Of a stretch of DNA of 13,157 nucleotides, positions 553 to 10,065 are shown in pieces. Source of the stretch: Aequorivita sp. (GTDB lineage Bacteria > Bacteroidota > Bacteroidia > Flavobacteriales > Flavobacteriaceae). The stretch lies in the NCBI GenBank assembly GCA_020435865.1, contig JAGQYZ010000161.1, forward strand, positions 1 to 13,157, written 5' to 3'. Each line of letters begins with the position of its first letter. Positions within the stretch are counted from its first letter, which is position 1. Below the pieces are notes generated by a model. The model ran no database searches, had not been told where the DNA came from, and saw only the letters and a program-made list of their open reading frames with translations. Made by a program: the position numbers and the translations under genes.

Positions 553-1305
553 ATGGAAGAGAAAAAAACAAAACAGAAATACGCATTAGTAACTGGAGGT
601 TCTCGAGGTATTGGCCGGGCAGTCTGCATTCAACTTGCCAAGGATTTGGAATACAGCCTTCTTATAAACTATAACGGAAACAAAGAAGCTGCCCAGCAAA
701 CCTTGAAAGAAGTGAAGACTCTTGGCGGCAAAGGCGAAATAATCCAGTTTGACGTTACCGATGCCGAAGCTGTTAATAAGGCATTTGACGTATGGCACGA
801 AAACAATAAAGATGCTATCATTGAAGTGATTATAAACAATGCTGGAATAACCAAAGATGGTATGTTTATGTGGATGAAACCCGAAGATTGGCATAGTGTT
901 ATTAATACGAGTTTGAATGGTTTTTACAATGTAACAAATGCTTTGATTCAAAAATTGCTTGTCAATAAATATGGACGGGTTATCAATATGGTTTCGGTTT
1001 CTGGGTTAAAAGGAACGCCGGGACAGGTTAATTATTCCGCAGCAAAAGGAGCTGTTATTGGTGCTACAAAAGCATTAGCGCAAGAAGTTGCAAAACGAAA
1101 TATTACTGTAAACGCTGTAGCCCCAGGATTCATAAAAAGTGATATGACCGCCGAACTTGACGAAAAGGAGCTCAAAAAAATGATACCAGCCAACCGTTTT
1201 GGCGAAGCTGAGGAAGTTGCGCACGTAGTTAGTTTTTTGGCTTCTTCTAAATCTTCCTATATTACCGGGGAAGTGATTAATATTAATGGCGGAATTTATT
1301 CATAA
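553..1305 (+). CDS. fabG: 3-oxoacyl-ACP reductase, FabG-type SDR
   Basis: This is a short-chain dehydrogenase/reductase of 250 residues, the usual FabG length. It would reduce 3-oxoacyl-ACP to 3-hydroxyacyl-ACP with NADPH in the cytoplasm, here most likely during each round of polyene elongation. The Rossmann cofactor motif TGGSRGIG is at residues 14-21, NNAG at 95-98, and the catalytic set Ser148, Tyr161 and Lys165 is intact (YSAAK). The C-terminal ITGEVININGG segment is typical of FabG. It is the first gene of the run, with the ketosynthase starting 12 bases after its stop. The position inside a flexirubin-type cluster argues for a dedicated pigment reductase rather than the housekeeping FabG. 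The family call is sure; the exact substrate is inferred from context. Confidence 0.9.
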   Translation: MEEKKTKQKYALVTGGSRGIGRAVCIQLAKDLEYSLLINYNGNKEAAQQTLKEVKTLGGKGEIIQFDVTDAEAVNKAFDVWHENNKDAIIEVIINNAGITKDGMFMWMKPEDWHSVINTSLNGFYNVTNALIQKLLVNKYGRVINMVSVSGLKGTPGQVNYSAAKGAVIGATKALAQEVAKRNITVNAVAPGFIKSDMTAELDEKELKKMIPANRFGEAEEVAHVVSFLASSKSSYITGEVININGGIYS

Positions 1306-1317: not shown

Positions 1318-2538
1318 TTGAGAAGAGTAGTAATTACCGGAATGGGTATTTATTCCTGCATCGGCAAAAACCTGCAGGAAGTGAAGCAATCGCTCTATGA
1401 CGGAAAATCTGGAATTATTTGTGACGGAAAAAGAAAGGATTTTGGTTATCGTTCCTGTTTAACGGGTTGGGTTGAAGAACCCAATTTGAAGGAGCAACTT
1501 TCCAGAAGAGAACGTGTTAGCCTTGGAGAAGAAGGTGCTTATGCGTATGCCGCCACCATTGAAGCATTGAAAAATGCAAAGATAGACCAGCAGTTTCTTG
1601 ACAAAAATGAAGTGGGTATCCTCTACGGAAACGATAGCACCGCAAAATCGGTTATTGAATCAGTTGATAAAATTCGTGAAAAGAAAGATACAACCTTAGT
1701 TGGTTCAGGCGCTATTTTTAAAGCAATGAACTCTTCGGTAACAATGAATCTTTCAACTATTTTTAAATTACGAGGAATCAATTTCACAATCAGTGCGGCC
1801 TGTGCAAGTGGTTCACATTCCATCGGGATGGCCTATTTCTTAATAAAAAATGGCTTGCAAGATTGTATAATTTCAGGTGGAGCGCAGGAAATAAATGAAC
1901 TCGCAATGGGCAGTTTTGACGGTCTCGGGGTTTTTTCAACACAACTTGACCCAACAAAAGCATGTCGTCCCTTCGATAAGGATAGAGACGGTTTGGTACC
2001 CAGTGGCGGAGCGGCAACATTAGTTATTGAAAGCTATGAAAGTGCCATAAAACGAGGTGCGCCAATTTTGGGCGAAATTATAGGCTATGGCTTTTCTTCA
2101 AACGGTGATCATATTTCAACACCAAATGTTGATGGCCCCGCACGCGCGATGAAAATGGCTTTAGAGCAAGCAAATATAAAAGCTACTGAAGTTGATTACG
2201 TAAATGCCCATGCAACTTCAACGCCCGTTGGTGATGCAAATGAAGCCCTTGCTATTACTGAGGTTTTTGGTGAAAATGGCCCCTGTGTTAGCTCCACAAA
2301 GTCTATGACGGGCCACGAATGCTGGATGGCTGGAGCTAGTGAGGTCATTTATTCTATGTTGATGATGGAGCATTCTTTCATCGCTCCAAACATTAACCTG
2401 GAAACGCCCGATGAGGCAGCTTCAAAATTAAACCTTGTTAACAAAACGTTAAATAGAAAAATTGATGTATTTTTGTCCAATTCTTTCGGTTTTGGGGGAA
2501 CCAATTCCGCATTAATTATTAAAAAGTGTACACATTAA
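1318..2538 (+). CDS. Beta-ketoacyl-ACP synthase (FabF/KAS II type)
   Basis: This 406-residue condensing enzyme of the thiolase fold extends an acyl chain with malonyl-ACP. The catalytic triad is complete: Cys162 within SAACASG, His298 within NAHATSTP, and His333 within MTGHE, with the accessory Lys328. A glycine-rich GFGGTN loop lies near the C-terminus. The TTG start is chosen because the next in-frame ATG (1339) would remove the conserved first strand (RRVVITGMG), and because a strong AAGGAGG precedes the TTG. In aryl polyene and flexirubin pathways one active ketosynthase pairs with a chain-length-factor-like partner to build the polyene. This protein is the most FabF-like ketosynthase in the window and is the best candidate for the main elongating enzyme. 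It sits between the reductase and the acyl carrier protein, all closely spaced. Assignment to polyene rather than resorcinol chain extension is inferred. Confidence 0.9.
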   Translation: MRRVVITGMGIYSCIGKNLQEVKQSLYDGKSGIICDGKRKDFGYRSCLTGWVEEPNLKEQLSRRERVSLGEEGAYAYAATIEALKNAKIDQQFLDKNEVGILYGNDSTAKSVIESVDKIREKKDTTLVGSGAIFKAMNSSVTMNLSTIFKLRGINFTISAACASGSHSIGMAYFLIKNGLQDCIISGGAQEINELAMGSFDGLGVFSTQLDPTKACRPFDKDRDGLVPSGGAATLVIESYESAIKRGAPILGEIIGYGFSSNGDHISTPNVDGPARAMKMALEQANIKATEVDYVNAHATSTPVGDANEALAITEVFGENGPCVSSTKSMTGHECWMAGASEVIYSMLMMEHSFIAPNINLETPDEAASKLNLVNKTLNRKIDVFLSNSFGFGGTNSALIIKKCTH

Positions 2539-2540
2539 AA

Positions 2541-2783
2541 ATGAATAAAGAAGTTATAGTTGAGAAAATAAACTACTTTTTGGTAGATGAGTTTGAGGTA
2601 GAAACCGAAGACATTGAACCAAGAGCCAACCTAAAAGAAACTTTAGAGCTGGATAGCTTGGATTTTGTAGACTTGGTAGTTGCCATTGAGGCCAATTTTG
2701 GCGTGAAATTGACTGGTGAAGATTTCCTTAATGTTATTACACTTCAAGATTTTTACGACCTGATTGAAACAAAAATCAGCTGA
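2541..2783 (+). CDS. Acyl carrier protein
   Basis: This is a small acidic four-helix carrier protein of 80 residues. The phosphopantetheine attachment site is Ser39 in the classic DSLD motif, preceded by a leucine-rich helix and followed by the hydrophobic, acidic helix II (VDLVVAIEANFGV). I prefer the ATG at 2541, two bases after the ketosynthase stop, over a GTG at 2526 that would overlap that gene and add five non-conserved residues. The holo-protein would carry growing acyl intermediates between the ketosynthase, reductase and dehydratases encoded nearby. It is the only carrier protein in this window; related clusters usually contain more than one, so others may lie downstream. The family assignment is secure. 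Whether it serves the polyene line, the resorcinol line or both cannot be told from sequence. Confidence 0.92.
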   Translation: MNKEVIVEKINYFLVDEFEVETEDIEPRANLKETLELDSLDFVDLVVAIEANFGVKLTGEDFLNVITLQDFYDLIETKIS

Positions 2784-2801: not shown

Positions 2802-3683
2802 ATGGCGGGCGAATGGGAAGGCAAGAGCAAAGGCACCGTTTTAGGGTATAAAATCTTTATATTTTTTATTCGGAAATTAGGGGTTCGCGCTGCTTACGGC
2901 TTGCTTTATTTCGTTGCCCTTTATTATGTTTTCTTTGCTGGAAAAAGTACGCATTCCATCTTTTATTACTTTCGTAAAAGACTGAAATATGCTTTGCCGA
3001 AAAGTCTTTTCAGTATTTATAAAAGTTATTATGTATTCGGTAAAACCATCATCGACAAGGCCGCAATCTCTTCAGGATTAAAAAGTCAATTTACCTATGA
3101 ATGTGATGGAGTTGAAAATATAATCAATCTTCTTGATAAACAGCAGGGTGGCATTATGATAAGTGCCCATGTTGGCAACTTTGAAATCGCCGAGTTTTTT
3201 TTCGAAGAAATTGATACCCGTTCACAAATAAGTCTTGTTACCACAGATGCTGAACATAGAAACATAAAGGAATACATGGAAAAAGTTACCATGCGTTCTA
3301 ACGTTAAATTTATTTTAGTGAAGGAAGACATGTCGCATATTTTTGAAATAAACAATGCATTAAGAAATGGCGAACTGGTTTGTTTTACAGGAGATAGATA
3401 TATGAAAGATTCCAAAACATTGGCGGAATCACTTATGGGTAAACAAGCGAATTTCCCTGCGGGACCTTTTTTATTGGCCAGTAGGTTGAATGTTCCTGTT
3501 TTGTTTGTCTATGTAATGAAGGAAACAAACAAGCATTATCATTTATATGCCCGTCAAGTAGAAGTAAAAAATCGCGATGCACAAGGCCTGTTAAAAAAAT
3601 ACACTGAAAGCGTGGAATGGATATTGAAAAAATATCCATTGCAATGGTTTAACTATTTTGATTTTTGGGATACAAACGATTAG
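2802..3683 (+). CDS. LpxL/HtrB-like lysophospholipid-family acyltransferase
   Basis: This 293-residue protein belongs to the lipid A late-acyltransferase (LpxL/HtrB) branch. The HX4E active-site motif is present as His123 to Glu128 (HVGNFE), after a short N-terminal membrane anchor at about residues 27-47. A second conserved block, FTGDRYMKD at about residue 190, matches the GDR/K region of the family, and a PAGPFLLASRLNVPV segment matches the later conserved block. These enzymes transfer acyl chains from acyl-ACP to a hydroxyl group at the inner membrane. Here, between an acyl carrier protein and darA, it is a candidate for attaching an ACP-bound aryl polyene to a hydroxyl acceptor, either the dialkylresorcinol (the flexirubin ester) or a lipid. 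It lies 18 bases after the ACP gene and 3 bases before darA. The substrate is inferred, and a BtrH-like gene downstream is a competing candidate. Confidence 0.85.
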   Translation: MAGEWEGKSKGTVLGYKIFIFFIRKLGVRAAYGLLYFVALYYVFFAGKSTHSIFYYFRKRLKYALPKSLFSIYKSYYVFGKTIIDKAAISSGLKSQFTYECDGVENIINLLDKQQGGIMISAHVGNFEIAEFFFEEIDTRSQISLVTTDAEHRNIKEYMEKVTMRSNVKFILVKEDMSHIFEINNALRNGELVCFTGDRYMKDSKTLAESLMGKQANFPAGPFLLASRLNVPVLFVYVMKETNKHYHLYARQVEVKNRDAQGLLKKYTESVEWILKKYPLQWFNYFDFWDTND

Positions 3684-3686
3684 CAA

Positions 3687-4604
3687 ATGAAGGAAATTTT
3701 AGTAATCTATTATTCGCAAACAGGGCAACTTTTTGATATTTTGAAGAATATTGCTTCAAAAATTTCAGGTGAAAACATAAATATTTCTTATTGCGAAATC
3801 ATTCCAAAGAAAAAATTCCCCTTTCCATGGAAACAAGAAGAATTTTATGGGGCCTTTCCAGAAACTTTTCTTCAAATTCCCACTTCTTTGGAAACGATTC
3901 CTCAGGAAATTCTTCAGAAAAATTACGATTTAGTAATTTTAGGCTATACTACTTGGTATTTAACGCCATCGATCCCAATCAATTCATTTTTAAAATCTGA
4001 GGAAGCAAAAATTTTGCTTGCCAATACGCCAGTTGTCACCGTTTCTGCAAGTAGAAATATGTGGATTATGGCACAGGAAAAAGTGAAGAAATTGCTAGTT
4101 GCTAATAAGGCTAGATTGGTTGGAAATATCGCTTTGGTTGATAGAAATCTAAATCACATTAGTGTAATCACAATCGTACACTGGTTGATGGGCGGAAAGA
4201 AAACCAAAATGCTCGGAATCTTCCCAAAACCTGGTGTTTCTGATAAGGATATTGAATCGGCTTCGCGATTTGGAATACCAATCAAACAAGCTTTATTCCA
4301 AAATGAATATTCTAACCTGCAAGAAAATCTTTTAAGCGTTGGTGCTGTAAAAGTAGATCCTTCTCTCATAGCTACAGATATTCGCGGAAATGTTGTTTTT
4401 ACAAAATGGGCTAATCATTTGATTAAAAAAGAAGGTGAAGAAAGAAAGAAATGGCTCGTTTATTTTAAATATTATTTGTTATTTGCAATATGGCTTATAG
4501 CACCAATAGTATTTATTGTATTTTTGCTCACTTATATCCCAATGTATCGTAAAATACAGCAAGATAAAGCCTATTATTCATCAGTTGCATTAAAGCAGGA
4601 TTAA
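3687..4604 (+). CDS. darA: DarA, dialkylresorcinol-forming aromatase (flavodoxin-like)
   Basis: DarA works after DarB: it oxidises the cyclohexanedione ring product to the aromatic 2,5-dialkylresorcinol. The 305-residue protein begins with a flavodoxin-like strand and phosphate-binding loop (YYSQTGQ, residues 8-14), consistent with FMN binding. A second flavodoxin-type block is LVILGYTTWYLTPSIPI near residues 85-100. A strongly hydrophobic segment at about residues 260-288, followed by a short polar tail, predicts a C-terminal membrane anchor. The stop overlaps the start of darB by one base (TAATG), indicating translational coupling, and the pair is the diagnostic signature of dialkylresorcinol clusters. 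I recognise the family from the pairing and overall sequence pattern; the flavin requirement is inferred from the fold. Confidence 0.87.
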   Translation: MKEILVIYYSQTGQLFDILKNIASKISGENINISYCEIIPKKKFPFPWKQEEFYGAFPETFLQIPTSLETIPQEILQKNYDLVILGYTTWYLTPSIPINSFLKSEEAKILLANTPVVTVSASRNMWIMAQEKVKKLLVANKARLVGNIALVDRNLNHISVITIVHWLMGGKKTKMLGIFPKPGVSDKDIESASRFGIPIKQALFQNEYSNLQENLLSVGAVKVDPSLIATDIRGNVVFTKWANHLIKKEGEERKKWLVYFKYYLLFAIWLIAPIVFIVFLLTYIPMYRKIQQDKAYYSSVALKQD

Positions 4605-5737
4605 TGAAGAATGTTTATATTACAAGGATTGCAAAGTTTTTGCCCAATGAGCCCGTGGAAAATGAGGCGATGGAAGAAAAACTTGGAGTTATTAATGGAA
4701 AAACCTCAAAGGCCCGCCGCATTATCCTTCGGAACAACCAGATAAAAACACGTTACTACGCCATTGACAAAGATGGAAATGTAACCCATAATAACGCACA
4801 ACTTGCTGCAAAAGCTGTGGAAGCTTTGTGCGACGAAACATTCAATAAGAACGAAATTGAATTATTGTCTTGCGGCACATCCAGTCCAGACCAGATTTTG
4901 CCTAGTCATGCTGCAATGGTACACGGGTTTTTAAAGAATGGAAACCTAGAAGTGAATTCTCCTTCGGGAGCGTGTTGCAGTGGAATGAATGCCTTGAAAT
5001 ATGGCTATATGGCCATAAAATCTGAACAAGTGAATAACGCAGTTTGTACAGGTTCTGAAAGAACTTCCTCTTGGATGAAATCTGATATTTTTGAAGACGA
5101 AGTAGCACATTTGCAGCAAATTGATGAAAATCCAATTCTTGCATTTAATAAGGAATTTTTGCGTTGGATGCTTTCTGATGGTGCTGGAGCATTTCTATTG
5201 GAAAGCGAACCAAAAGGGGAAACGCCATTGAAAATTGAATGGATGGAAGGCTACAGCTACGCATTCGAACTGGACACCTGTATGTATGCTGGTGGAGACA
5301 AATTGGAAGACGGTAGCCTAAAACCGTGGAGCGAATATCCCGCAGATGTTTGGGGTAAAAAATCACTTTTTGCAATGAAACAGGACGTGAAGTTGTTGGG
5401 TGAAAATATTCTTCAAAAGGGGGTGGAAAGCATGAAAGAAGCCATGGCGAAGCACAACATCACCGAAGATGACATTGATTATTACCTTCCACATATTTCT
5501 TCATATTATTTCAAAGAAAATCTTTATAACGAAATTGAACGACAAGGTCTGCATTTGTCTTGGGACAAATGGTTTTTGAACCTTCAAAAAGTAGGAAATG
5601 TTGGTGCTGGCTCCATTTATCTTATGTTGGAAGAATTGGTGCATTCCGGAAAACTTAAAAAAGGCGATAAAATATTTCTTCAAGTGCCCGAAAGTGCTCG
5701 CTTCGCATATTCTTACGCTTATTTGACTGTTGTTTAA
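4604..5737 (+). CDS. darB: DarB, KAS III-like dialkylresorcinol ketosynthase
   Basis: DarB is a FabH/KAS III-like condensing enzyme that joins two activated acyl chains (a beta-ketoacyl and a second acyl unit) and cyclises them to a 2,5-dialkylcyclohexane-1,3-dione, which DarA aromatises. At 377 residues it is somewhat longer than FabH. The catalytic triad can be placed: Cys125 in GACCSGMNA (Cys124 is adjacent), His297 in LPHISSYY, and Asn332 in GNVGAGSIY. The FabH ANxR-type loop after the histidine is replaced by YYFKENLY, in keeping with a divergent branch that handles two acyl substrates. It overlaps darA by one base at its start, and the first hotdog gene begins directly after its stop. 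The enzyme class is confident; acyl chain specificity cannot be read from the sequence. Confidence 0.9.
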   Translation: MKNVYITRIAKFLPNEPVENEAMEEKLGVINGKTSKARRIILRNNQIKTRYYAIDKDGNVTHNNAQLAAKAVEALCDETFNKNEIELLSCGTSSPDQILPSHAAMVHGFLKNGNLEVNSPSGACCSGMNALKYGYMAIKSEQVNNAVCTGSERTSSWMKSDIFEDEVAHLQQIDENPILAFNKEFLRWMLSDGAGAFLLESEPKGETPLKIEWMEGYSYAFELDTCMYAGGDKLEDGSLKPWSEYPADVWGKKSLFAMKQDVKLLGENILQKGVESMKEAMAKHNITEDDIDYYLPHISSYYFKENLYNEIERQGLHLSWDKWFLNLQKVGNVGAGSIYLMLEELVHSGKLKKGDKIFLQVPESARFAYSYAYLTVV

Positions 5738-6175
5738 ATGAACGTTTTTACCGAAAAAATAACGGACAAAGATTTCATCGGAAAATTGATTCCGCAGAAA
5801 GCGCCGTTTGTGATGGTGGACAAATTATTTCATTTCGAAGAAAAAAAAGTGGTTGCGGGGTTAACTATTTCCGAAGAAAACATTTTTATACAAAAAAATA
5901 AATTCACTGCTCCGGGTTTGATTGAACATATGGCCCAAACTGTTGCACTTTATACGGGCTATCAATTCTTTCTGAAAAAAGAAGATGCACCAACTGGTTA
6001 CATTGGCGCAATAAAAAAAGCTGAAATTTTTGAACTCCCTTCTGTTGGAGACGAATTAAAAACCACCGTAATTATTCTTCACGATATTATGGGTGTTACT
6101 TTGGTTACCGCTGAAACTGAATGTTATGGAAAAATTATCGCTTCCAGCGAAATGAAAACCGTATTGGCAAATTAA
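5738..6175 (+). CDS. Hotdog-fold 3-hydroxyacyl-ACP dehydratase-like protein 1 (ApeI/ApeP type)
   Basis: This 145-residue single hotdog domain resembles FabZ at its N-terminus (IPQKAPFVMVDKL, where FabZ has LPHRxPFLLVD). The central helix is APGLIEHMAQ, where the glutamate aligns with the catalytic Glu of FabZ. The FabZ catalytic-His segment (GHFPxxP) is absent: the stretch before the helix is IFIQKNKFTAPG. The likely role is dehydration of 3-hydroxyacyl-ACP to trans-2-enoyl-ACP, giving the conjugated double bonds of the polyene because no enoyl reductase follows. The block GYIGAIKKAEIFELPSVG is shared, with changes, by the next protein, showing the two are paralogues. There is no gap after darB and only two bases before the next gene, so the two are probably made together. 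The fold and pathway are well supported; independent catalytic activity is uncertain. Confidence 0.8.
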   Translation: MNVFTEKITDKDFIGKLIPQKAPFVMVDKLFHFEEKKVVAGLTISEENIFIQKNKFTAPGLIEHMAQTVALYTGYQFFLKKEDAPTGYIGAIKKAEIFELPSVGDELKTTVIILHDIMGVTLVTAETECYGKIIASSEMKTVLAN

Positions 6176-6177
6176 GA

Positions 6178-6636
6178 ATGAAAGCAATGGATATTTCAAG
6201 TTTAGATATTTCCAACTTTCTACCACATCGCGACCCGATGCTGATGGTTACTTCAGTATTTGAGATTGATGAAAATTCTGTGTCAACCAAATTTCAAATT
6301 TTAGAAGATTGTGTTTTTTTAAAGGAAGGAAGGCTCTCTGAAACTGGACTTATTGAAAATGCCGCTCAAGCTGCTTCAGGTATTGTAGGTCAAAGTTTTT
6401 TTGAAAAAGACGATTTGGAAGGAACCGGTAACAAGTTAGTTGGGTACATAAGCGCTATCAAAAAAGTGGAGATTTTTGACCTTCCGAAGGTTGGTGAAAC
6501 GATTATTACCAAAGCAAAACTTCTTTCAAGGTTTGATACAGGTAAAGTAACCATGTGTAGCCTTGAGGCCCAAACATTTCTTGCTGAAAAATTAATTGTA
6601 TCTTCTACCATGAATTTTTTAATCCATGAAGTCTGA
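6178..6636 (+). CDS. Hotdog-fold 3-hydroxyacyl-ACP dehydratase-like protein 2 (ApeI/ApeP type)
   Basis: This is the second tandem hotdog protein, 152 residues from the ATG at 6178. A longer frame opens at 6121 but would overlap the preceding gene by 55 bases and add residues with no family match. ATG 6187 is also possible. The N-terminal motif LPHRDPMLMV is closer to FabZ than that of its neighbour, with the LPH histidine kept. The central helix reads ETGLIENAAQAASG, keeping the glutamate but again lacking a GHFPxxP histidine. The shared block GYISAIKKVEIFDLPKVG shows common ancestry with the preceding gene. The simplest reading is that the two products form a mixed dehydratase dimer acting on ACP-bound polyene intermediates. 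Two bases separate it from the next gene. Confidence 0.8.
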   Translation: MKAMDISSLDISNFLPHRDPMLMVTSVFEIDENSVSTKFQILEDCVFLKEGRLSETGLIENAAQAASGIVGQSFFEKDDLEGTGNKLVGYISAIKKVEIFDLPKVGETIITKAKLLSRFDTGKVTMCSLEAQTFLAEKLIVSSTMNFLIHEV

Positions 6637-6638
6637 TT

Positions 6639-7037
6639 ATGAAGAAAAAAGAAGTGCCACAGGATAAAAGTAATTTGGAATCTGCAAATTTCCGCGAACT
6701 CTGCTATGCAGTTGATGAAAATGGCGAATATACCACTGAAAGAAGTAGTGGCTGGGAACCAAAAACCGTAGCTTTAAACAATGCAATAGAAGAAATAAAA
6801 GAGCGCATACAAGATGCGAAAAACCGTGTAATTACAGGTGAGACCAGCCCCATTGAATATTATATGGAACTTCATAAAATGGACGTGGGCATATTGGCAA
6901 GTTACGTGGGTTTTTGGCAATGGAAAGTAAAACGCCACTTTAAGCCTTCGGTTTTTAAAAAATTGAGTGATAAAACGTTGAATAAATATGCTGAAACATT
7001 TGATATTTCAGTAGAAGAACTTCAGAACATAAAATAA
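6639..7037 (+). CDS. Small protein of unknown function, coupled to the BtrH-like gene
   Basis: I do not recognise this 132-residue protein. It is hydrophilic and appears mostly helical after a polar N-terminus of about 20 residues. It has no signal peptide or membrane segment. Visible features are a charged amphipathic stretch (NNAIEEIKERIQDAKNRV, about residues 47-64), a SPIEYYMELHKMDVGILASYVG segment that is tyrosine- and methionine-rich, an aromatic and basic patch (FWQWKVKRHFKPSVF), and a C-terminal end (LNKYAETFDISVEELQNI) that resembles the last helix of Xre-type helix-turn-helix domains or a short recognition helix. A DNA-binding role is not otherwise supported. Its stop overlaps the start of the BtrH-like gene by one base (TAATG), the same coupling seen for darA/darB, so a role as partner or chaperone of the BtrH-like enzyme is plausible but unproven. 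Confidence 0.75.
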   Translation: MKKKEVPQDKSNLESANFRELCYAVDENGEYTTERSSGWEPKTVALNNAIEEIKERIQDAKNRVITGETSPIEYYMELHKMDVGILASYVGFWQWKVKRHFKPSVFKKLSDKTLNKYAETFDISVEELQNIK

Positions 7038-8032
7038 TGGAAATAGACTTTACCCATCACCAATCTGCACATTGTGAAAATGGCGTGGTTTCAAATTTGA
7101 TGAAACACAATGGTTTCAGCGTAAGCGAGCCTATGGTTTTTGGCGTTGGCAGCGGTTTGTTGTTCTGTTATATTCCGCTTTTAAAAGTGAACCACGCGCC
7201 GGTAATTACATATCGCGCACTGCCGGGACATATTTTTAAAAAGTTTGCAAAGCGTACAGGCGTAAAAATGAAGCGTGAAAAATTCAGCAATCCAAAAGAT
7301 GCGAAAGCTCGGCTTGATGAAAATTTAAAAAAAAACAATCCTGTTGGTTTACAAGTTGGGGTATATAATCTACTCTATTTTCCTGACGAATACCGTTTTC
7401 ACTTCAATGCCCACAATATGGTTGTTTATGGGAAGCAAGACGATCGTTATTTAATCAGTGATCCGGTGATGGAAGAAGTCACTTCTCTTTCTGAAAAGGA
7501 ATTGGAAAAAGTGCGTTTTGCCAAAGGAGCTTTCGCACCAAAAGGCCATATGTATTACCCAATTTCTTTTCCTGAAAAACTGGAACTTGAAACAGCAATC
7601 GTAAAAGGAATTAAGGACACCTGCAAAGCAATGCTTGCGCCAGTTTCGTTTGTTGGGGTGAAAGGAATCCACAAAATAGCTGCCTTAATTCGAAAATGGC
7701 CAAAGAAAAAAGGGATTAAAACCGCTAACCATTATTTGGGACAAGTAGTGCGAATGCAAGAGGAAATAGGTACTGGCGGTGGTGGTTTCCGATATATTTA
7801 CGCAGCTTTTTTACAAGAAGCTGGTAAGCTTTTAGGAAATGAAAAGCTTATTGAACTTTCCAAAGAAATGACCGAAATTGGTGATTTGTGGCGCGATTTT
7901 GCACTTGAAGCTTCTAGAATTTACAAAAACAGAAGCGCTCAAACCGACAGTTACAACAAAGTTGCTGACCAATTGGATCATATTGCCGATTTGGAAAAGG
8001 TGTTTTTTAGGAAATTGAAAAAGGCAATATAA
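7037..8032 (+). CDS. BtrH-like (N-terminal domain) acyl-ACP acyltransferase candidate
   Basis: This 331-residue protein begins with a region closely matching the N-terminal domain of the butirosin protein BtrH: HCENG at residues 12-16, then a HNGFSVSEPMVFGVGSGL block at about 24-41. BtrH transfers an ACP-bound acyl group to an amine of ribostamycin using a papain-like Cys/His/Asp set. Equivalent residues can be placed here: Cys13, His126 (FHFNAHNMVVYG) and Asp142 (LISDP). The C-terminal part (about 165-331) is helical and charged, with a GTGGGGFRYIYAAFLQEAG segment, and matches what I recall as the domain of unknown function that follows BtrH-like N-termini. In a pathway where an ACP-bound polyene must be esterified to a dialkylresorcinol, this is an attractive candidate for that step. 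It is translationally coupled to the small gene upstream. The family is confident; the reaction is inferred. Confidence 0.8.
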   Translation: MEIDFTHHQSAHCENGVVSNLMKHNGFSVSEPMVFGVGSGLLFCYIPLLKVNHAPVITYRALPGHIFKKFAKRTGVKMKREKFSNPKDAKARLDENLKKNNPVGLQVGVYNLLYFPDEYRFHFNAHNMVVYGKQDDRYLISDPVMEEVTSLSEKELEKVRFAKGAFAPKGHMYYPISFPEKLELETAIVKGIKDTCKAMLAPVSFVGVKGIHKIAALIRKWPKKKGIKTANHYLGQVVRMQEEIGTGGGGFRYIYAAFLQEAGKLLGNEKLIELSKEMTEIGDLWRDFALEASRIYKNRSAQTDSYNKVADQLDHIADLEKVFFRKLKKAI

Positions 8033-8060: not shown

Positions 8061-8804
8061 ATGATACAAATAAACCAACTTTCAAAAAAATACAAAGGCG
8101 CCGAAGACTTTTCGGTAAAAAATCTTGATTTGAAAGTTGAAGATGGTGAAATATACGGATTGCTCGGTCCAAACGGCGCTGGAAAAACCACACTTATTTC
8201 CATGTTGACTTCACTTTTAAAACCTACTTCTGGTTCGTTCACAATCAATGGTTTGAACTTTAAGGAACATAAAAACCAATTGAAGCAACTAATTGGCATT
8301 GTTCCTCAGGAATATGCGCTTTACCCAACGCTTACGGCTTTTGAAAATTTGCAATATTTTGGAAGTATGTATGGAATTAAAGGCGAAATCCTTAAAAAAT
8401 CCATTTGCGAACATTTGGAAATTATGGGGCTTTCAAAATTCGCCAATAAAAAAACCGCCACCTTTTCTGGCGGAATGAAACGTCGTATTAACCTGATTGC
8501 CGGAATTCTGCATCAACCCAAAGTTTTGTTTTTGGATGAACCAACTGTGGGCGTGGACGTGCAATCTAAAAATGTGATCATCGATCACTTAAAATTGCTG
8601 AACAAGAAGGGAACAACAATCGTTTACACTTCACACCATTTAAACGAAGCCGAATTTTTCTGTACCCACGTTGCCATAATTGACAATGGGGAAATAATCG
8701 TAAAAGGAATTCCTTCAGAATTGATAAAAAAGCAAAAAAGCGCCAACAACCTAGAAGACGTTTTTTTAGCAAAAACAGGTAAAGCCCTTCGCGATTATGC
8801 ATAA
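8061..8804 (+). CDS. ABC transporter ATP-binding protein (DrrA/CcmA-like)
   Basis: This 247-residue nucleotide-binding subunit belongs to an ABC-2 type exporter. Walker A is GPNGAGKTT (residues 36-44), the signature is SGGMK (136-140), Walker B is VLFLDEP with Asp159 and Glu160, and the switch histidine is His192 (TSHHLNEAE). The Q-loop is seen in GIVPQEYALYP. The order and spacing are standard and all catalytic residues are intact. It overlaps the permease gene by eight bases (ATGCATAA), indicating coupled synthesis. This subfamily drives export of antibiotics, lipids or polysaccharides. In this cluster the cargo is plausibly the polyene pigment, a resorcinol lipid or an intermediate moving across the inner membrane, but the sequence does not show which. 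Confidence 0.93.
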   Translation: MIQINQLSKKYKGAEDFSVKNLDLKVEDGEIYGLLGPNGAGKTTLISMLTSLLKPTSGSFTINGLNFKEHKNQLKQLIGIVPQEYALYPTLTAFENLQYFGSMYGIKGEILKKSICEHLEIMGLSKFANKKTATFSGGMKRRINLIAGILHQPKVLFLDEPTVGVDVQSKNVIIDHLKLLNKKGTTIVYTSHHLNEAEFFCTHVAIIDNGEIIVKGIPSELIKKQKSANNLEDVFLAKTGKALRDYA

Positions 8805-10065
8805 ACTCTGGGCTTCAACATATAAAGAAATACTGTTACTTATCCGTGATTTGGGCGGAATTGCAATTCTTTTTATAATGCCCTTGTTGCTTTTGGTTGT
8901 AATTACTTTGGTGCAGGATAGCACCTTTAAAACCATTAGTGATATTAAGATTCCAGTGCTTTTGGTAGATAATGATAAAGGCGAAGTTTCAAAAAATATC
9001 ATTGAAAATCTTTCCGAATCTAATTCGTTTGAGATTCTTCAAGAAACTTCCGAAGAAGATGCGAAAAATGCCGTTTTCTCAGGAAAATATCAACTTGCCA
9101 TTGTAATTCCGAAAAATCTTTCGGCTTCACTTCAGAAAAAAGTAGACCAAAATGTGGAAGGCATTTTGTCAAAATTCGGTTTGGATGAAGATACTTTGGC
9201 GGTTGCCAAAGAAGTAATTCCCAAAAAAGAAGTGCGCTTGTATTTCGACCCTGCTACTCAAGTAAGTTTTAAATCTTCGGTAAAGAACGGCATCGATAAA
9301 ATGATTTCAAAAATCGAAACCCAAAGTATTTATAAAGCTTTTCAAACTGAATTGGACGAAGAGGGTGCAGAACCAATTTTTGATACAGAAAACTTTATCG
9401 CTTTTAAAGAAATCCTTCCCACAAAAAACAACGAGGAAATCATTCCAAACTCGGCTCAACACAATGTTCCCGCTTGGACGTTGTTTGCAATTTTCTTCAT
9501 CATTGTTCCACTTTCCATTAATTTAGTAAAAGAAAAAAATCAAGGCACTTTCGTACGTTTACGCACCCAGCCAGTAAATTACGCCACAGTTCTTGGCGGA
9601 AAAACAATTGTTTATCTAGGTGTTTGTTTGATTCAATTTACGTTGATGTTGCTTGTTGGAATTTATCTTTTTCCTGCAATGGGGCTTCCAGGAATTGACG
9701 TTTCAGGGAAATTGCCGTTGCTTTATATGGTTGCGCTTTTTTCAGGATTGGCGGCAATTGGCTTAGGGTTACTTTTAGGAACAATTGCAAAAACACAGGA
9801 ACAGGCAGCGCCCTTTGGTTCAACTTTGGTTGTTATTTTGGCTGCGCTTGGCGGTGTTTGGGTTCCCGTTTTTGTTATGCCGAAGTTTATGCAACTCATT
9901 TCAAAAATTTCCCCAATGAATTGGGGGTTGGAAGCTTTTTACGATGTATTTTTAAGAAATGTGGGTTTTGTTAAAATCCTTCCCGAAATTTCGTTATTAT
10001 TGTTGTTCTTCCTTAGTACAACAATAATAGCAATAATCTTTAATCAAAGAAAAAATGCCGTCTAA
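8797..10065 (+). CDS. ABC-2 type transporter permease
   Basis: This 422-residue membrane subunit pairs with the ATPase just upstream. It shows the ABC-2 arrangement with one N-terminal membrane helix (about residues 21-40), a large soluble region of about 185 residues that would sit outside the cytoplasm, then about five helices near 226-246, 270-292, 308-328, 338-360 and 395-416. The SINLVKEKNQGTFVRLRTQPVNY stretch after the second helix is the typical coupling region. The large extracytoplasmic domain is characteristic of the YhhJ/YbhR-type branch of exporters rather than small DrrB proteins. It overlaps the thioesterase gene by 11 bases. Export of the pigment or a precursor is the likely role given the operon, with no direct sequence evidence for the cargo. 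Confidence 0.92.
   Translation: MHKLWASTYKEILLLIRDLGGIAILFIMPLLLLVVITLVQDSTFKTISDIKIPVLLVDNDKGEVSKNIIENLSESNSFEILQETSEEDAKNAVFSGKYQLAIVIPKNLSASLQKKVDQNVEGILSKFGLDEDTLAVAKEVIPKKEVRLYFDPATQVSFKSSVKNGIDKMISKIETQSIYKAFQTELDEEGAEPIFDTENFIAFKEILPTKNNEEIIPNSAQHNVPAWTLFAIFFIIVPLSINLVKEKNQGTFVRLRTQPVNYATVLGGKTIVYLGVCLIQFTLMLLVGIYLFPAMGLPGIDVSGKLPLLYMVALFSGLAAIGLGLLLGTIAKTQEQAAPFGSTLVVILAALGGVWVPVFVMPKFMQLISKISPMNWGLEAFYDVFLRNVGFVKILPEISLLLLFFLSTTIIAIIFNQRKNAV

Follow-up and report, generated by a model that had tools for sequence, protein, structure and literature searches.

DarH, a BtrH-related protein encoded in flexirubin gene clusters, as the proposed enzyme joining polyene and dialkylresorcinol

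RESULTS

Organization of the darH locus

The analyzed stretch of DNA (the window) comprises 13,157 nucleotides, bases 1 to 13157 of contig C80, from a fragmented Aequorivita genome that is 69% complete. It carries a tight same-strand operon in which the genes for FlxB, a ketosynthase, an acyl carrier protein (ACP), an LpxL-like acyltransferase, a DarA-like protein, DarB, two dehydratase-like proteins, and DarG precede darH, which is itself followed on its 3' side by genes for an ABC ATPase and permease, a thioesterase, a second ketosynthase, and a methyltransferase (Table 1). A preliminary description of this DNA had placed here a BtrH-like protein, set in a combined polyene and dialkylresorcinol pathway next to an LpxL-like protein with an HX4D/E motif, and each of these points was borne out: the FlxB, ketosynthase, ACP, DarA-like, and DarB genes share one operon, and the LpxL-like protein does carry the motif, as HVGNFE at residue 123. 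The DarA-like product matched no curated family over its cut-off, and we presume it to be DarA from its position and from general knowledge.

The darH open reading frame is intact, and its ATG overlaps the stop codon of darG by one base. Both of its Pfam domains score above their curated cut-offs, BtrH_N at residues 12 to 143 (174.6 bits versus 29.7) and DUF4872 at residues 154 to 327 (217.3 bits versus 28), and the NCBIfam equivalog NF053550, "BtrH-related acyltransferase DarH," is matched over positions 1 to 325 of 325 (514.9 bits versus 300). The Lip_A_acyltrans domain of the LpxL-like neighbor is absent from DarH. Since NCBIfam already names DarH an acyltransferase, its broad function is annotated and the specific reaction proposed below is the new part.

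TABLE 1 Positions of the features considered in the window
Feature	Position	Strand	Remarks
flxB	553..1305	+	Flexirubin ketoreductase, polyene marker; NF053542, 417 bits
Acyl carrier protein	2526..2783	+	PF00550; candidate donor of the polyene thioester
LpxL-like acyltransferase	2802..3683	+	Lip_A_acyltrans domain, HX4E; rival ester synthase
darA-like	3687..4604	+	Dialkylresorcinol aromatase candidate; weak flavodoxin match at N terminus
darB	4604..5737	+	Resorcinol-forming ketosynthase/cyclase; NF053539, 672 bits
DH2	6121..6636	+	Second dehydratase-like protein; adjoins darG in G226
darG	6639..7037	+	132 aa; NF053545/NF053536; directly 5' of darH; possible partner subunit
darH	7037..8032	+	BtrH_N + DUF4872 acyltransferase, 331 aa; proposed polyene-ACP:dialkylresorcinol O-acyltransferase
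Cys13 codon	7073..7075	+	Proposed nucleophile; 113/113 and 17/17 in alignments
His126 codon	7412..7414	+	Proposed general base; 113/113; aligns with His of AziU3 and of C39-like peptidase
Asp142 codon	7460..7462	+	Proposed third triad member; 113/113; aligns with Asp of AziU3 and of C39-like peptidase
ABC transporter	8061..10065	+	ATPase 8061-8804, permease 8797-10065; usually adjoins darH; none in polyene-only stretches

Proposed catalytic residues and predicted fold of DarH

Cys13, His126, and Asp142, already singled out as a set in the preliminary description, are correctly positioned and invariant in 113/113 DarH sequences, namely, the window protein and 112 aligned relatives picked by length (310 to 350 amino acids) and diversity among the 240 of two best-120 lists. 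A motif scan of these 240 relatives passed 229 and flagged 11, among which P0046 and P0113 have their start codon after the Cys, P0039, P0121 to P0123, P0135, and P0158 possess all three residues in the 113-row alignment, and P0013, P0020, and P0040 seem to have an early start codon and were left out of the alignment. All three residues are also invariant in a 17-sequence N-terminal alignment (17/17) that includes five non-DarH relatives, and in a looser alignment of 25 sequences Asp142 is aligned in 21, and in the remaining four an Asp stands in the preceding column.

When solved structures were searched, the DarH sequence alone gave one match, at an E value of 1.2. The profile of the N-terminal alignment retrieved AziU3 (E = 0.003, against 0.9 with the 25-sequence profile) and a C39-like peptidase (E = 0.09), aligning His126 and Asp142 with a His and an Asp in AziU3 and with the peptidase's H...DP motif. 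Designed coiled coils that matched the C-terminal helices with the 113- or the 25-sequence profile were taken as chance, and a viral fold library returned only partial matches to DarH, headed by an endolysin and peptidases.

In the predicted model, Cys13 opens a helix (residues 13 to 24), His126 lies within a strand (125 to 134), and Asp142 follows another (137 to 141). According to this model DarH is a papain-fold enzyme, and it matches the carrier-protein-dependent, cysteine-using acyltransferases CcbD, CtaG, and AziU3 over its full length, including the helical DUF4872 half, in which Arg286 and Arg299, invariant in the 113 sequences, perhaps resemble the Arg patch of CcbD. A papain-fold protein at this place could alternatively be a hydrolase or editing thioesterase whose substrates are ACP-bound intermediates, or a C39-like peptidase that works for the neighboring ABC transporter. 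Bacteriocin-processing C39 peptidases have a C39 domain typically fused to an ABC exporter. The C39 match of DarH is below the cut-off (13.1 bits versus 22) and darH is a separate gene with a DUF4872 half; moreover, the whole-length match is to acyltransferases, and darGH occurs without adjacent ABC genes in genomes G017 and G269, which makes such a role unlikely.

DarG is encoded directly 5' of DarH in all seven Bacteroidota DAR-type loci that we mapped, including G017, where the pair lies away from darAB, and it may be the partner of DarH. Its own model is of low confidence (pLDDT 57, pTM 0.38). By eye, the C-terminal part of DarG looks like a degenerate cro/C1-type helix-turn-helix.

DarH occurs where the polyene and resorcinol pathways meet

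Among 395 Bacteroidota genomes searched for three families, DarH was found over its cut-off in 31, FlxB in 36, and DarB, at 498 bits or more, in 32, the genomes being related and the counts thus not independent. All 31 genomes with DarH carry both DarB and FlxB. The DarB count includes G017 (518.7 bits) and G238 (498.9 bits), both below the curated cut-off of 550, and leaves out G280 (404.6 bits), a second copy in G182 (394.7 bits), G254 (379.9 bits), and fragments in G219; DarH-family matches below the cut-off (152 to 186 bits, in G158, G210, G265, and G269) were likewise not counted. DarH lies at most 8 kb from DarB in 30/31 genomes and at most 30 kb from FlxB in 27/31, the polyene gene being elsewhere in G017, G269, G300, and G391. 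With DarGH, DarAB, and FlxB at three separate genomic places (loci L037 and L038), G017 indicates that DarGH need not be linked to the genes that it would serve.

FlxB without DarH was found in five genomes of five genera and three families (G118, G238, G347, G351, and G394), none of which gave a genome-wide match to DarA or DarG. We considered G238 as a genome with both pathways but lacking DarH and rejected it: its "DarB" gene follows a TetR gene, and neither DarA nor DarG was found in the genome, so that it was not counted as a resorcinol maker. A TetR gene directly followed by an StlD/DarB-like ketosynthase gene without dar neighbors was observed at L034, L035, and L036 (Prevotella and Phocaeicola plasmids and the G238 chromosome), and the pair may form a small-molecule module of its own.

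With the intact cluster of G226 as the reference, the polyene-only stretches of G118, G238, and G394 (40 kb each) were found to have kept the ketosynthases, ACPs, KR, methyltransferase, LolA-like protein, MMPL-acyltransferase, AMP-binding ligase, and LpxL-like protein, and gave no match to DarA, DarB, DarG, DarH, the ABC pair, or DH2, the second dehydratase, which was likewise not seen in the DarH loci mapped outside family f1. The clusters of G347 and G351 are reduced within the fetched stretches (27 and 35 kb), with no LpxL-like or ligase match.

These stretches bear on two other candidates for the ester-forming enzyme. The LpxL-like protein encoded beside darA, a true acyltransferase homolog that shares the operon of darH, could make the ester through the HX4E chemistry of its HVGNFE motif and leave DarH another task. 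However, it persists in polyene clusters where the genome lacks DarA, DarG, and DarH (364 bits in G118, 237 in G238, and 174 in G394) and gave no match in the FlxB stretches (20 to 40 kb) of the DarH genomes G017, G269, and G391, and in the aryl-polyene cluster of Escherichia coli the proposed task of the acyltransferases ApeD and ApeJ is to couple the polyene to a lipid anchor (PMC8253772); we therefore hold this alternative to be quite improbable. The second candidate is the ligase-like FlxW, which Schoner and co-workers proposed to join polyene acid and resorcinol in Chitinophaga pinensis, a published proposal offered without a test (PMC3992019). Nevertheless, r08, the AMP-binding protein in the reference cluster, is retained in the polyene-only stretches of G118, G394, and G238, and no AMP-ligase is found among the reference-cluster genes missing there, an argument that covers AMP-ligases in general; we give the FlxW proposal very little credence. 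Altogether, both the LpxL-like protein and the ligase persist where the resorcinol genes are missing, which makes them weak candidates for forming a resorcinol ester. The expression of darA and darB alone in a heterologous host yields the resorcinol (PMC3992019), so DarH is not needed for that half of the molecule, and since DarA and DarB account for the resorcinol itself, the one enzyme with acyltransferase character that remains among the resorcinol-tracking genes is DarH. DarH is distributed in the same way as DarG and, for the most part, the ABC transporter, and co-occurrence alone thus does not single it out.

Distribution beyond Bacteroidota and exceptions

A second set of genomes was obtained with a DarB motif that is not limited to a phylum and so includes some Bacteroidota; the scan gave 120 stretches, and our counts cover the 80 listed. 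DarA was scored in the locus for 33 genomes and genome-wide for the other 47 (8 clear; one 55-bit partial match uncounted), giving 41 genomes with DarA. DarH was over its cut-off in 39 of these 41, versus 6 of the 39 without DarA. The two DarA genomes lacking DarH are Pseudomonas sp. NFIX28 and a metagenome-assembled genome (MAG; L076) whose contig ends ~340 bases past DarB, and in one MAG that lacks DarA (L095) a subthreshold DarH fragment lies at the edge of a contig. Another grouping, with DarH in 43/46 versus 2/34 genomes, was dropped, and we counted by DarA instead, because the 46 had partly been chosen for DarG or DarH in the locus. PF13723, which we took to be an aryl-polyene marker, was positive in 5/5 genomes with FlxB and negative in 5/5 without; it was present in 43/46 genomes of one set and in 12/34 of the other. 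Sixteen genomes have the polyene marker and no DarA, and DarH is present in 6 and absent from 10 of them.

The six exceptions with DarH and DarB and no clear DarA, in which the resorcinol acceptor is consequently unproven, are the delta-proteobacterial MAGs G437 to G440 and two further MAGs (G403 and G406). In three of the delta-proteobacterial MAGs (G437, G438, and G440), the cluster that holds darH itself includes genes for a polyene-type ketosynthase and an LpxL-like protein; in G439, darH has DarB close by and a ketosynthase ~10 kb away; darG was detected beside darH in two of these four MAGs. A gene for a B12-binding radical SAM protein adjoins darB in G438 (L189, 17511-18959) and G439 (L192, 6896-8194), with a similar one near the G437 and G440 clusters, and this protein might stand in for DarA or alter the resulting product.

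Pseudomonas sp. NFIX28 has DarA-DarB without DarG, DarH, or the ABC genes in an 8-kb locus, lacks DarH genome-wide, and carries an aryl-polyene-like cluster elsewhere. The dar genes of Pseudomonas are known for free 2-hexyl-5-propylresorcinol (cited in PMC8719888), and NFIX28, which has both pathways and no DarH, resembles such free-resorcinol makers. In a Prevotella sp. MAG (G433; L148, 3500-8000), two darH genes flank darA-darB-darG, and the second copy may have another acyl donor.

DarH relatives are also found outside DAR clusters, on an Acinetobacter plasmid and in Streptomyces, with other neighbors, which argues for a versatile family. Such versatility would suit a reading in which DarH acylates the resorcinol or the polyene otherwise, e.g., by adding a fatty acyl group or lipid anchor, and the ester is left to another enzyme. 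Against this, the mass spectra of flexirubin and arcuflavin contain a resorcinol fragment that matches the bare, heterologously made resorcinol (PMC3992019; PMC3949708), and we see next to no chance for it. On the Acinetobacter radioresistens plasmid, the BtrH_N-type gene (L031, 1407-2378) is flanked by a TetR gene on one side and two PaaI thioesterase genes on the other, and DarH-like matches of less than 60% identity were seen on 45 Acinetobacter plasmid records.

DISCUSSION

We propose that DarH is the enzyme that forms the flexirubin ester by joining the polyene and the dialkylresorcinol, a reading to which we give a probability of roughly three in four. What the analysis shows is the fold, the conservation of the triad residues, and the occurrence of DarH where both pathways meet; the substrate, the acceptor, the carrier protein, the ping-pong order, and the role of DarG we infer. 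In the proposed model, the finished aryl-polyene would arrive as a thioester on an acyl carrier protein, and Cys13, activated by His126 and Asp142, would take the acyl group to give an enzyme thioester. Attack on this thioester by a phenolic hydroxyl of the DarA/DarB product, the dialkylresorcinol, would then release the ester, and DarG probably acts together with DarH. An ester-forming role had been put forward in the preliminary description, and it gains support from the match of the model to carrier-protein-dependent acyltransferases, from the distribution, and from the production of the resorcinol by DarAB alone. That description had also held that the ester step is not firmly assigned, in agreement with the open-licence literature, in the excerpts of which we found FlxW as the only proposal and no paper assigning the step to DarH.

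Flexirubins are classic marker pigments of Bacteroidota, and the enzyme joining their two halves appears unproven. If true, the assignment of DarH turns this step into a one-gene deletion question, and the presence of a single gene, darH, might tell free-resorcinol producers from pigment makers. Going further, and only tentatively, DarG-DarH could be a portable two-gene conjugation module, to our knowledge the first papain-fold, carrier-protein-dependent maker of aryl esters, whose gain or loss would decide between a free resorcinol acting as signal or antibiotic and an outer-membrane polyene pigment, even when the pathways are unlinked.

Among the closest comparisons is BtrH of butirosin biosynthesis, which names the N-terminal Pfam domain of DarH, the likeness being one of Pfam family and description. 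BtrH is described as an acyl carrier protein:aminoglycoside acyltransferase with a domain closely related to C39 and C70 peptidases (PMC10318531), in line with the transfer of ACP-bound acyl groups to a small-molecule acceptor stated in the preliminary description. Together with its partner BtrG, it acylates an amine of an aminoglycoside with an amino-acyl group (PMC8430323), whereas the acceptor of DarH would be a phenol, O-acylated with a long polyene. AziU3 of the azinomycin pathway was crystallized with a partner, as the AziU2-AziU3 complex. In Azoarcus, a "BtrH-like peptidase" named DarE is listed between darD and an ABC ATPase in the DAR cluster for arcuflavin, which is also thought to be a polyene-resorcinol ester; the polyene loci lie elsewhere, and the account of that cluster names DarE a peptidase and gives it no ester role (PMC3949708). 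We take DarE as the DarH orthologue, by its listing rather than by its sequence, and our assignment, if true, also applies to arcuflavin-type pigments in Proteobacteria. The lincosamide condensing enzymes CcbD/LmbD (12% identity to DarH) have a reported Cys-His-Glu triad and yield an amide, as does CtaG of the closthioamide pathway (11% identity), whose acceptor is carrier bound. Thus, aryl ester formation would be new with respect to the described relatives whose reaction we found (BtrH, CcbD, and CtaG), all of which make amides, and a fold described for amide synthesis would, if our assignment is true, extend to phenol esters of long acyl chains.
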